36,978 nucleotides of DNA. Source: an uncultured Spirochaetia bacterium (GTDB lineage: Bacteria; Spirochaetota; Spirochaetia; JABEVK01). Shown here in pieces: positions 16,273 through 28,620 of the stretch; the stretch's first letter is position 1, and every line of letters starts with the position of its first letter. Both the position numbers and the translations under genes were made by a program. The notes under the pieces were generated by a model. The model ran no database searches, was not told the origin of the DNA, and worked only from the letters and a program-made list of their open reading frames with translations. The stretch lies in NCBI GenBank assembly GCA_937960645.1, contig CALGPJ010000022.1, positions 1 to 36,978 of the forward strand, written 5' to 3'.

Positions 16273-16301
16273 GTGACGTCATCGCCTGGGTATGTTATAA
16301 T
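16273..16301 (+). promoter_or_regulatory. Promoter of the PAS kinase pair, apparently leaderless
   Basis: A perfect -10 TATAAT (16296-16301) is preceded after exactly 17 bases by GTGACG (16273-16278), four of six matches to TTGACA. Transcription should begin about seven bases after the -10, which is the GTG start codon at 16308 itself. No Shine-Dalgarno sequence lies before that codon, so the mRNA is predicted to be leaderless or nearly so. Confidence 0.6.
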
Positions 16302-16307
16302 CGCACA

Positions 16308-17372
16308 GTGAACCTCGATCAGGATAATTCAGCCCACCTCGATTTTCAAGAGTTGATGCTGGCGGTGGACGAGTCCCTGCCTGTTGGCCTATATCTCATG
16401 GACTGCGACGGGGTATTTCTCTACGGAAACGAGAGACTTCAAAAAATTCTGGAATGGCCCACCCCGCTTCTGGGCGTATCACTCGCCGAGTTTTTCCCCC
16501 CGGAACGTCGATATTCCATATTAAAGAACCATCAAAAATATTTTGGAACACCGGGCATTCTCGTGCACCAAACCGTTTACTTGACTACGGCCAAAGGACG
16601 TCAGATTACCGCCGATATCCAGGCAACCACTTACACCCTGGAAGACAACTTCAACGTGGTAGTGGGCACCCTCAATGACATTACCGAAGACGAGCATTTA
16701 CGGCTCAAGAAAGACGCCACGGAACGGGTCGTGCTCCACGATCTCAAAAACCCGCTCAGCGGGTTTTTAGGTCTTGCCCAGCTGTTGAAGCGGGAATTCC
16801 GGGACAATTCAGAAGTCACCATGTTTTCCGACGAACTTCAACTGCGGGGAATGCGCCTGCTGCGCCTTTTGGAAACCCAGTTAGCCCTGGGACGAATCGA
16901 ATCGGAGCAGTTCCGACTTATCCGGGAACCAATAGACATACCTGGTATGCTTGACGAGGCGCTGGAAGATTGGGTTCCGGAAGATCTCAGAGCCGGGAAA
17001 CACTTTCAAACTGTATTTGATGATCATCTCTCGGAAAGTGATTTTAACAGCCATACAACCTTGCTCCGAGTCGTCATCGGTCAGATTCTGCGCTTTGGAT
17101 TCGAGCAGTGTCCCACAGGAGGAAAGATCGAAGCGAGATTCTCTTTTACATCCACAGGCGATTTGGTTTTCAAGATGTCGTTCCCCCTTCCGAACGTCGA
17201 GTTTTCACACCTCGATAGAGTTCTATGGGATGACTTGCTTCAAATGAGCCTTTGGCTCGTCAGTAAGGCCATTACCCAGCTGGGGATCCAGCTTGATCCC
17301 TTAACCCTCCACGATTCTTTTGTCCTGACGGTTCACGTGCCTACCGGATTTTTGGAGGATTCAGCTTGGTGA
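16308..17372 (+). CDS. PAS-domain histidine kinase-like protein with intact H-box but degenerate ATPase domain
   Basis: A 354-residue cytoplasmic protein with no membrane helix. Residues ~16-128 are a PAS domain (LPVGLYLMDCDGVFLYGNER through GTLNDITEDE). A dimerisation/phosphoacceptor helix follows, with a canonical H-box HDLKNPL (144-150, His144). The C-terminal region, where the ATP-binding domain should be, has lost the N-box Asn residues (251-268 reads TLLRVVIGQILRFGFEQC) and shows no DxGxG or GxGLG motif, so it probably cannot bind ATP. It starts at GTG 16308 without a ribosome binding site. Its TGA overlaps the start of the next kinase gene as GTGA. Phosphorylation may be done in trans by that partner. 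Confidence 0.85.
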   Translation: MNLDQDNSAHLDFQELMLAVDESLPVGLYLMDCDGVFLYGNERLQKILEWPTPLLGVSLAEFFPPERRYSILKNHQKYFGTPGILVHQTVYLTTAKGRQITADIQATTYTLEDNFNVVVGTLNDITEDEHLRLKKDATERVVLHDLKNPLSGFLGLAQLLKREFRDNSEVTMFSDELQLRGMRLLRLLETQLALGRIESEQFRLIREPIDIPGMLDEALEDWVPEDLRAGKHFQTVFDDHLSESDFNSHTTLLRVVIGQILRFGFEQCPTGGKIEARFSFTSTGDLVFKMSFPLPNVEFSHLDRVLWDDLLQMSLWLVSKAITQLGIQLDPLTLHDSFVLTVHVPTGFLEDSAW

Positions 17373-18436
17373 GCAATATTTTGATCCTCAACGAGGATCT
17401 CATCAAAATCATTCTCCAGGCCACACCCGTGGGACTTTGTGTGACCGACCGCAACGGTGTTTTCGTCACCGTCAACAAGGCTTATGCGGATTTGTACGGG
17501 TACTCGTCCGAGGAAATGATCGGCAAATCGTTTTTGATGGTCGTCAGGGAGCAGGATCGGGAACACTTGCAAAAATTGCACGATGAATTCATTGCCGGTA
17601 AACAGGAACTCGACGCCGAATGGACCGTCCAGGGAAAGGGCGGGAGAATCATTCAAATCAGGGCCACGGCCCGGTTGTTCCAGAACCGTGCAGGCCACAG
17701 TTTCAAAGTCACCATGGTACAGGATATTACACAGAGGAAAATGCTCGAGCGTCGTAAAAACATCGCGGAAAGCATCCTTTTCAAGGAAATCGCCCAGAGC
17801 CTGGAATTGCTCAAGTCACGAGTCCATACCACCGATTGGTCCCCTTTCAAAAAAAGCGAAGTCAAAATTGATTATGAGAAAGAGTTCAAGGAAATCCTGG
17901 ACATCCTTGAAGTCAAGCTGACCTATCTCAAAGATTTCTCCGAAATCATGAGCGGGAATTTCATCACTCGAAAAATTGAATTCGATCTCGAAAGTGTCTT
18001 CAGAAAATTGGAACTTCAGTTTCGGCAACTCGCTCAAACCAATGATGTCGATCTTGTTTTTACTCAAAAAGACAGCACCGTAAAAACATCGGTTGCCTAC
18101 CGCCTCACCAGCGACCCCTTCATCCTGCGCAACATCCTGGAAAATCTGATCAAGAACGCCATCGAGGCCTCCCCTCCCGGCGCCAGGGTTGAAAGTATCG
18201 CTCGTAAAACGCTGAACTCTTTTCTTATCGAAGTGATCAACGAAGGGGAAATTCCGGAAGCGGCCAAAAGCAGGTTTTTTCAACCGTACAACACCACCAA
18301 AAGTTTTGGTACAGGCCTCGGCGTCTACAGTGCAAAATTGATGTCCGAAGTTCTGGGGGGAAACCTCAAGATGAATTCGATTTCCGGGAAGACCGTGCTC
18401 TCACTGCACCTCCCGATAAATATTCTCCTCGCTTAA
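17369..18436 (+). CDS. PAS-domain histidine kinase-like protein with intact ATPase domain but no H-box
   Basis: A 355-residue cytoplasmic protein. Residues ~10-120 are a PAS domain (TPVGLCVTDRNGVFVTVNKA through VTMVQDITQRK). The next helices (~125-200) take the place of a dimerisation domain but hold no H-x-x-x-N-P motif; the only His nearby is in SRVHTTDW. The C-terminal HATPase domain is well kept: N-box NILENLIKNAIEA (255-267), a G1-like NEGEIP, FQPYNTTKSFGTGLGV (about 304-319), and a final strand VLSLHLP. GTG 17369 is the start, overlapping the previous stop as GTGA, with GGAGG about ten bases upstream. The 3' end overlaps the convergent GGDEF gene by 36 bases. Confidence 0.87.
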   Translation: MSNILILNEDLIKIILQATPVGLCVTDRNGVFVTVNKAYADLYGYSSEEMIGKSFLMVVREQDREHLQKLHDEFIAGKQELDAEWTVQGKGGRIIQIRATARLFQNRAGHSFKVTMVQDITQRKMLERRKNIAESILFKEIAQSLELLKSRVHTTDWSPFKKSEVKIDYEKEFKEILDILEVKLTYLKDFSEIMSGNFITRKIEFDLESVFRKLELQFRQLAQTNDVDLVFTQKDSTVKTSVAYRLTSDPFILRNILENLIKNAIEASPPGARVESIARKTLNSFLIEVINEGEIPEAAKSRFFQPYNTTKSFGTGLGVYSAKLMSEVLGGNLKMNSISGKTVLSLHLPINILLA

Positions 18437-19896: not shown

Positions 19897-21012
19897 GTGA
19901 ATGCCAGCGACAGAGCAGAGGCCGCTTACAGGAAGCAGGCAAAGGGACCCTCAGATAAGAGTGACGATAAGATAGAACCGCAGGTTTTCGAAGCCCACAC
20001 TGCTGCCGATAAAACGGCTCCGGATCGGCCAAGTGTCAAAAAAATCGCCAAATTTCTCCTTACGATAGGGGAGCAGGAAGCGGCCAAGGTTATCCACCAT
20101 CTGCCCCGGGACGCAGCCGACGAAATCCTGCGAACCATGAAGGACATACCCGCCGTTCACCCCCTGGAAGCCGAAGCCTTGCTGAAGGAGTTCGGCTTTT
20201 CCGCGCAGAAAAAGAGCAACATCTCCGGTGGGAAAAAAATAGCCCGGGAAATGCTCGAAAAGGCGTTTGGTGAGGAAAAAGCACAACATCTGTTGAAAAA
20301 AGCCTTGCCCGAAACACGCCGAAAATCCTTCGAATTTCTAAAAAACCTGGAATCACATCAGTTGAAACTCCTGCTCGGTGGGGAATCTCTCCTCGTACTC
20401 TCCCTGGTGTTACCCCATATCGATAAAAAATCGGCTGCCGAGTATCTGGCCACCCTTCCCCAGGAAGATCGTCTCGTCCTCATTAAAAGAATGGCTCGGG
20501 AAAGCCGGGTGAGCCAGGAGGTAGTGCAGCGCGTCGAATCGGCCCTTCAGGAAAAAATCAAATCGCTCTCGAACCTGGAGGGCGTCCCCGTGGATGGAAG
20601 GGCGCAATTGGGTGAAATTCTGAAAAACCTGAGCCCCCAGGATGCCGAAAGCCTGCTTTCCGAACTGGAAGATACCGACCCCGAATTGGCGCAGAGCCTT
20701 CGGAATCGACTGTTTACCCACGAGAGGATTCTTCGAATCCTGGATGTGGACTTTGAAGTGTTTTTGCGCACTATTGAAGATGAGGATCTGGCCCTGGTCA
20801 TCCAGGCATTACCGGAGGAATCCGTCAACAAGATTTTGTCCAATGTCAGCGAGCGTCGCCGGCAGTGGATTCGAGATGAGATTGATATGAGAGGACCCGC
20901 AGCCAGGATCGAGGCGGCTGCAGCCCTTCGAGAGTTTCTTTCCAAAGTTCGCAAGGCTCTGGCCGACGGGGATTTGAGGTACAAAGAGGACAATCCCGAT
21001 GAATACGTATAG
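19897..21012 (+). CDS. Divergent FliG-family flagellar switch protein paralogue
   Basis: A 371-residue cytoplasmic protein with the three-part helical layout of FliG: N-terminal domain (~45-125), middle domain (~140-225) and C-terminal domain (~235-360). The C-terminal part matches best: LFTHERILRILDVDFEVFLR, NKILSNVSERRRQWIRDEI and MRGPAARIEAAAALREFLSK. In canonical FliG this domain contacts the stator through charged residues in FEDI and LDDR segments; here these read HERI and LDVD, so the charges are partly changed. The middle-domain EHPQ motif, which contacts FliM, reads GGES. This points to a paralogue rather than the main switch protein; spirochaetes are known to carry two FliG proteins. 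It starts at GTG 19897 without a ribosome binding site and overlaps the TM2 gene by 14 bases. Confidence 0.82.
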   Translation: MNASDRAEAAYRKQAKGPSDKSDDKIEPQVFEAHTAADKTAPDRPSVKKIAKFLLTIGEQEAAKVIHHLPRDAADEILRTMKDIPAVHPLEAEALLKEFGFSAQKKSNISGGKKIAREMLEKAFGEEKAQHLLKKALPETRRKSFEFLKNLESHQLKLLLGGESLLVLSLVLPHIDKKSAAEYLATLPQEDRLVLIKRMARESRVSQEVVQRVESALQEKIKSLSNLEGVPVDGRAQLGEILKNLSPQDAESLLSELEDTDPELAQSLRNRLFTHERILRILDVDFEVFLRTIEDEDLALVIQALPEESVNKILSNVSERRRQWIRDEIDMRGPAARIEAAAALREFLSKVRKALADGDLRYKEDNPDEYV

Positions 21013-27718: not shown

Positions 27719-28105
27719 TCAACTGGGATGCGATTCTTTATATTTCGCCATCAGGTCTTCGGCAAGCTCCCGAACGCTGGGTAGGGGTTTGAGCAGGACA
27801 TCGTTCGGGGTTAAGCCGCATTCCCGCAATTCAGGGGTCAGCTCGAAATGGTTCGCCCCCGTATGCAGCAGGATTCTCGCGTCGGGCCGCAGCGCATGGG
27901 CCCGAACAATCAATTCTGCCCCGTTCATGTCGGGCAGGCGAATATCAGTAATGATAAAGTCGAAGCGTTCCTTTTCCAGATACTGCAGAGCTCGGGCCGC
28001 ATTGCTGGCTCCGACCGACTCAAAACCACAATCGTCGAAAATATAGACCATGTTCTGCACGATGATGGGTTCATCGTCCACAATCAGAACGGTGGGGCCA
28101 CTCAT
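27719..28105 (-). CDS. Single-domain (CheY-like) response regulator
   Basis: A 128-residue receiver domain with no output domain. It shows the acidic pair in VLIVDDEP, the phosphoacceptor Asp in FIITDIRLPDMNG, the switch Thr in LLHTG and the conserved Lys in LLKPLP. ATG 28105 overlaps the stop of the carbonic-anhydrase-like gene as ATGA, with GGGAG just upstream, so the two are translationally coupled. Without a DNA-binding or enzyme domain it must act by binding a partner, as CheY does on FliM, or as a phosphorelay intermediate. The kinase pair at 16308-18436 has no adjacent receiver and could be a donor, but that is a guess. Confidence 0.92.
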   Translation of the reverse strand: MSGPTVLIVDDEPIIVQNMVYIFDDCGFESVGASNAARALQYLEKERFDFIITDIRLPDMNGAELIVRAHALRPDARILLHTGANHFELTPELRECGLTPNDVLLKPLPSVRELAEDLMAKYKESHPS

Positions 28106-28620
28106 GGAATCTCCCTGGCTGTCCGTGCCAACGCGGCAAGTTGCAAATAATCCCGAGCGTTTTGGCGAATTTTCTCGATCTCCTCCGCACTTAGGGTTCG
28201 AACCACCTTGGCGGGTGCCCCCATGATCAGCGATCTGGCGGGAAACCTTTTTCCCTGGGGGATCAGGCTGCCGGCTGCAACCAGGCACTCGTCCTCGATC
28301 ACGCACCCCCCTAGAAGGATGGCTCCCATCCCGATAAGACTCCCATCCCCCACCGTGGCGCTGTGCAAAATCGCCCGATGCCCTATCGTCACCTGATTTC
28401 CAATCTGGCAGGGCTGGCCATGATCCGTGTGGCACACACTCAAATCCTGAATGTTCGAATTCTCACCCACCACGATCATCTCCAGATCCCCTCGAAGAAC
28501 TGCCCCGTACCAGACACTTACCCCGACCCCCAGCACGACCTTGCCACTGACCACCGCACTGGGAGCCACCCAGGCACTCGGGTGGATTTCGGGTTTGTGG
28601 TCGGCCAGCGAATAGATCAT
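28102..28620 (-). CDS. Gamma-carbonic-anhydrase-like hexapeptide-repeat protein (YrdA family)
   Basis: A 172-residue left-handed beta-helix protein, expected to be trimeric. Family marks are VWYGAVLRGD (about residues 36-45), NIQDLSVCHTDHG with metal-ligand His, IGHRAILHSATVGDGSLIGM with further His residues, and the closing VAAGSLIPQGKRFPARSLIMGAPAKV segment (about 115-140). Members bind zinc or iron; some hydrate CO2, many have no proven activity. ATG 28620 has GGAG six bases upstream. It is the first gene of a minus-strand run with the response regulator and thioredoxin, and is divergent from prfC. Confidence 0.9.
   Translation of the reverse strand: MIYSLADHKPEIHPSAWVAPSAVVSGKVVLGVGVSVWYGAVLRGDLEMIVVGENSNIQDLSVCHTDHGQPCQIGNQVTIGHRAILHSATVGDGSLIGMGAILLGGCVIEDECLVAAGSLIPQGKRFPARSLIMGAPAKVVRTLSAEEIEKIRQNARDYLQLAALARTAREIP

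Follow-up and report, generated by a model that had tools for sequence, protein, structure and literature searches.

Histidine kinases whose parts are divided between two proteins have been described or proposed in several bacteria. The established split kinase is CheA3/CheA4 of Rhodobacter sphaeroides (PMC3591291). Amin and colleagues found that 3.66% of the HisKA proteins in SMART are without HATPase, and they use an HE/DxxN/T phosphatase motif for split bifunctional kinases (PMC3591291). In group A Streptococcus, two-hybrid data support a heterodimer of FasB and FasC; the kinase domain of FasB is proposed to phosphorylate H246 of FasC, itself a proposed pseudokinase (PMC12675982). In Corynebacterium glutamicum ChrS carries a laboratory-evolved frameshift, and ChrA is cross-phosphorylated by HrrS (PMC9491836). 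A literature search by name for heterodimeric histidine kinase returned no paper. The first-pass annotation of the locus described here presented its split arrangement as a departure from kinases with both parts in one chain, and that novelty falls away since split kinases have already been described (PMC3591291) or proposed (PMC12675982).

The window, meaning the whole stretch of DNA that was analyzed, is positions 1 to 36,978 (36,978 nucleotides) of the forward strand of contig CALGPJ010000022.1 from an uncultured Spirochaetia bacterium (GCA_937960645.1, JABEVK01; its own genome is G000 in our set). It contains two overlapping genes, P1 and P2, whose features are collected in the table. Re-reading the sequence showed that the earlier coordinates, the GTGA overlap and the numbering of His144 were all correct; a TTG at 17366, upstream of GTG17369, is a possible alternative start of P2. 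No membrane segment is evident by eye in either protein. The pair lies between thyX, which is divergent, and a GGDEF gene in convergent orientation, so that no response regulator gene adjoins it, which counts against a split kinase. The genome has 39 places with a receiver domain. The nearest receiver is a stand-alone gene on the minus strand (27719-28126, PF00072 68 bits) about 9.3 kb away, a possible partner with no evident linkage to P1-P2. Elsewhere in the window a FliG-like protein (19897-21012; FliG_N, M and C domains and a weaker MgtE_N match) is encoded next to a TM2-domain gene and outside any flagellar cluster of the window.

Features of the P1-P2 locus, in window coordinates
Feature	Position	Strand	Evidence or detail
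Promoter-like GTGACG-17-TATAAT, extended -10 TG	16273..16301	+	10/12 matches; about 1.7 such sites per region expected by chance
P1: PAS, DHp with acceptor His, degenerate CA domain; 354 aa	16308..17372	+	GTG16308..TGA17372
P1 PAS domain, residues 17-125	16356..16682	+	PF00989 22.6 bits, exactly at cut-off; TIGR00229 (NCBIfam) 29.0 bits, over cut-off
P1 His144 codon, H-box HDLKNPL	16737..16739	+	Sequence, DHp profile
P1 degenerate CA region, residues 214-348: N-box Asn replaced by Phe263, lid/G1 deletion, no GxGxG	16947..17351	+	
P2 ribosome-binding site GGAGGA, 9 nt before GTG17369	17354..17359	+	Sequence
GTGA overlap of P1 stop and P2 start (ATGA in G001)	17369..17372	+	Sequence
P2: PAS, DHp without acceptor His, intact CA domain; 355 aa	17369..18436	+	GTG start
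P2 PAS domain, residues 15-124	17411..17740	+	Pfam PF00989 60.7 bits
P2 Lys139 codon at acceptor-His position (Gln in G001)	17783..17785	+	Alignment
P2 CA domain, N-box LENLIKNAIEAS, G2 box GTGLG	18008..18415	+	Pfam HATPase_c 48.8 bits; nearest solved structure ThkA 3a0r/3a0t

A same-genus genome, G001 (public contig DYOB01000168.1), has the locus in the same order, thyX-P1-P2-GGDEF, with a 4-nt overlap between P1 and P2. In both species the 3' end of P2 runs into the convergent GGDEF gene, by 36 nt in the window (18401-18436) and by 42 nt in G001 (L032:1238-1279). The public metagenome assembly that holds DYOB01000168.1 (L038) is labelled Borreliella garinii, yet it spans 3.4 Mb and has 41 HATPase_c places; the label looks wrong.

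The first-pass annotation had given P1 a textbook H-box and an ATP-binding domain stripped of its N-box and G boxes, and P2 a good ATPase domain with no H-box. We found this reciprocal pattern by Pfam, by genome-wide scans and with independent profiles. P1 matched HisKA at 35.2 bits (cut-off 26.9) with no HATPase_c match even at E 10, and P2 matched HATPase_c at 48.8 bits (cut-off 26.4) with no HisKA match at E up to 10. When the window genome was scanned with PF02518, 36 places were returned at E<=0.001, P2 among them and P1 not; PF00512 matched P1 and not P2. Neither protein of the window therefore combines HisKA and HATPase_c in one chain, as orthodox kinases, including P1 of G001 and the class relatives, do. 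CheA domains (HPt P1, P3 dimerisation, CheW-like P5) were absent as well, Pfam showing only PAS, HisKA and HATPase_c.

For the independent profiles, DHp and CA alignments were built from 16 intact kinases belonging to other genera within the class, with P1 and P2 left out. The DHp profile gave 40.1 bits for P1 of G001, 39.3 for P1 of the window, 17.2 for P2 of G001 and 3.4 for P2 of the window; the CA profile gave 97.1 and 88.8 bits for P2 of G001 and of the window, 37.3 for P1 of G001 and -0.9 for P1 of the window. The losses are therefore graded as well as reciprocal. Judged by sequence, P2 has lost the acceptor domain and kept the ATPase, and P1 is the opposite, fully so only in the window's species. 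The window thus pairs an acceptor chain that appears to be without a functional CA domain with a CA chain without an acceptor His, the two components of a split kinase.

The degenerate CA region of P1 was examined further. In the profile alignment, which is uncertain in that degenerate stretch, the G1/lid and G2 positions show a deletion and no GxGxG. Single-chain structure models were made from four-sequence alignments (mean pLDDT 70 and 68). In the P1 model, of moderate confidence, the order of strands and helices of the CA domain is kept and the lid is unstructured, with low confidence. This region looks like a retained pseudo-CA domain. Its codon usage is coding-like (0.127 per codon in frame versus -0.28 and -0.54 out of frame). 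A sequencing frameshift in P1 is unlikely, given that codon usage and an in-frame alignment of the CA region with its homologue up to the last strand.

In P2 the missing element is the acceptor itself: the His column holds H in 16/16 relatives and in both P1 proteins, K in P2 of the window and Q in P2 of G001. The only His common to the two P2 proteins lies in the PAS domain. P2 of the window has a His153 near the H-box, and the predicted P1 CA domain keeps its alpha/beta sandwich; both would suit a pair of ordinary divergent homodimers, P1 with a cryptic ATP site or P2 using another His. We regard this as very improbable, because P1 is without the N-box Asn, the lid and GxGxG and falls below zero with the family CA profile, and because His153 lacks an H-box context and has no conserved counterpart in G001.

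Comparison with G001 suggests an order for the two losses. P1 of G001 is complete by Pfam (HisKA 30.0, HATPase_c 44.9 bits), and P2 of G001 has HATPase_c at 49.0 bits and no HisKA, with Gln at the His position. From these sequences the His loss of P2 is old and common to both species, and the ATPase loss of P1, which G001 does not share, appears to be recent. The first-pass annotation had proposed conservation of the pair and of both losses in relatives as a check: the pairing and the P2 His loss are kept in G001, and the P1 ATPase loss is not. Reciprocal loss is thus not a conserved state among the orthologues, and an obligate state would be at most specific to the window's species. That both losses are seen in one species only counts against a split kinase.

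P2-like kinases occur in 22 of the 395 class genomes (G000 and G001 counted), and the 16 relatives used above are those with a usable DHp-CA region besides these two. All 16 are single kinases with an intact His and N-box. A profile search of genome contigs with the P2 alignment found the G001 record as the only full relative, and among 395 class and 393 phylum genomes no P1 orthologue was found beyond G000 and G001, just distant kinases. In a genome of another genus of the same family (G002) the orthologues of thyX and the GGDEF gene lie apart and the P1-P2 pair is absent. Another genome of the family (G003, contig C62) encodes a stand-alone 231-aa kinase core without PAS (L036:1433-2128) with Asn at the His position (VLQNELKSPV) and an intact CA domain; it groups with P1 in the tree (95/94, long branches). 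Its presence indicates that His loss recurs in this group.

Since P1 is complete in G001, P2 there need not be a catalyst. P2 could instead be a His-less regulatory pseudokinase, similar to DivL or RetS, that binds to and tunes P1 or a different kinase, with His144 phosphorylated by some other kinase. The kinase regions of DivL and RetS are among the nearest folds, and the 36 HATPase_c places in the genome offer other possible donors. The fold matches say only "PAS histidine kinase", given the moderate confidence of the models and the low multi-domain TM-scores. We consider a regulatory pseudokinase unlikely: in both species P2 keeps the N-box and GTGLG and scores high for CA, and once P1 had lost its own ATPase, phosphate would come more simply from a catalytic partner encoded next to it. 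An ATPase kept over a long divergence in a chain without its own His (CA 97 bits in G001) suggests that P2 has a partner.

In G001, we found that P1 aligns with P2 over its full length (23% over 353 residues, E 6e-25) with the acceptor His against Gln, which makes them homologues of one architecture. They probably arose by tandem duplication. In the tree P1 and P2 do not come out as sisters, although that relation is not rejected (AU p 0.385, long branches); its lack of support in the tree weighs against the split kinase.

Between the window and G001, P1 is 32% and P2 39% identical, so that the pair diverges faster than its neighbors thyX (70%) and the GGDEF gene (59%). By domain, identity is 29% (PAS), 46% (DHp) and 27% (CA) in P1, and 45%, 31% and 43% in P2. 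Among other histidine kinase pairs of the two genomes DHp exceeds CA in 7 of 8, the eighth (38 versus 40%) being a doubtful orthologue pair. The log odds are 0.23-0.99 for the six better-aligned pairs, 0.83 for P1 and -0.54 for P2 (26/84 versus 59/136). P2 thus inverts the usual pattern of constraint, with CA above DHp in the aligned sequences; P1 lies within the range of the other pairs, so the test supports P2 alone.

The faster divergence of the pair could also mean relaxed constraint, a further point against a split kinase. At its extreme the locus would be decaying, with P1 losing function and the reciprocal pattern arising by chance in a pair that evolves fast under weak constraint. Low congener identity next to that of the neighbors, long branches and the absence of the P1-P2 pair from most relatives are all compatible with decay. 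Against this, both reading frames are intact with coding-like codon usage, the P1 CA region included, the helix around His144 is kept between the species (60% identical), the P2 CA motifs are perfect, and the gene overlap and the spacing from -10 to start are preserved in both species. We therefore think decay improbable.

The preserved spacing also bears on expression. The -10 of the promoter-like sequence ends 6 nt before the P1 GTG, and the same TATAAT-N6-GTG spacing is found at P1 of G001 (L032:3395-3382). Such promoter matches are not above chance in number, and the shared spacing is therefore the main evidence. This suggests that the P1 message is probably leaderless, beginning at the GTG start. 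Equal synthesis of the two proteins had been read from the GTGA overlap and is not supported: P1 seems to be leaderless, and a strong ribosome-binding site of its own precedes P2. Coupling is possible through the overlap, but this does not mean that P1 and P2 are made in equal amounts.

Each chain has lost a different half of a sensor enzyme, and the pair therefore probably works only together. We infer that, more likely than not, P1 and P2 are cytoplasmic PAS sensor kinases that have become the two halves of one split histidine kinase: ATP would be bound by P2, which would phosphorylate P1 in trans at His144. The homology of the chains makes a heterodimer joined by the DHp helices likely, and a P1:P2 DHp heterodimer would be the simplest arrangement; alternatively, phosphorylation could occur between homodimers, as in CheA4/CheA3, or within a mixed oligomer. 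The phosphoryl group would then pass from P1 to a response regulator encoded elsewhere. The HDLKN of P1 also fits the HE/DxxN/T motif (PMC3591291), and P1 may likewise dephosphorylate that regulator. With a PAS input on each chain, the output would respond to two signals and vary with the P1:P2 ratio. We suggest tentatively, at slightly less than an even chance, a stepwise route in which P2 lost its His first, genus-wide, and P1 its ATP site later, in the window's species, leading to mutual dependence and two sensory inputs. Of the first-pass interpretation, we find support for the complementary defects, for the pairing of the genes and, in both species, for P2 as a catalytic chain that has no His; equal synthesis is not supported, and the reciprocal loss is not conserved.

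If the split kinase is real, the two species form a natural before/after pair for the second loss, and the path from a homodimeric sensor kinase to an obligate heteromer becomes testable. It could then be asked whether splitting yields switch-like responses of the kind modelled for CheA3/CheA4. Functional two-gene kinases would also be escaping annotation that relies on HisKA plus HATPase_c.

The closest known systems each share part of this arrangement. As in CheA3/CheA4, acceptor and ATPase would lie on two mutually dependent proteins, and the acceptor protein may also be a phosphatase, as the HDLKN motif of P1 suggests. In contrast, CheA3 and CheA4 are chemotaxis proteins without whole domains, whereas P1 and P2 are PAS-HisKA-HATPase kinases with losses inside retained domains and overlapping genes. 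FasB and FasC are likewise encoded by two neighboring sensor-kinase genes. However, each has six transmembrane helices, their operon includes a response regulator, and both keep a His and an ATPase-like domain; P1-P2 has no adjacent regulator, and both of its losses are visible in sequence. In ChrS/HrrS, too, a kinase that lacks CA function forms a heterodimer with an intact paralogue, but that case is laboratory-evolved and P1/P2 would be a natural, stepwise loss. The orthodox PAS-HisKA-HATPase kinases of the class (G032, G145, G130 and others) have the same domain order and family and are the nearest relatives of P2, yet each is encoded by a single gene in which neither the His nor the ATPase motif has been lost. 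The apparent novelty of P1-P2 is that an ordinary PAS kinase was split, probably through duplication followed by reciprocal losses in steps, and that a sister species preserves the one-loss stage.
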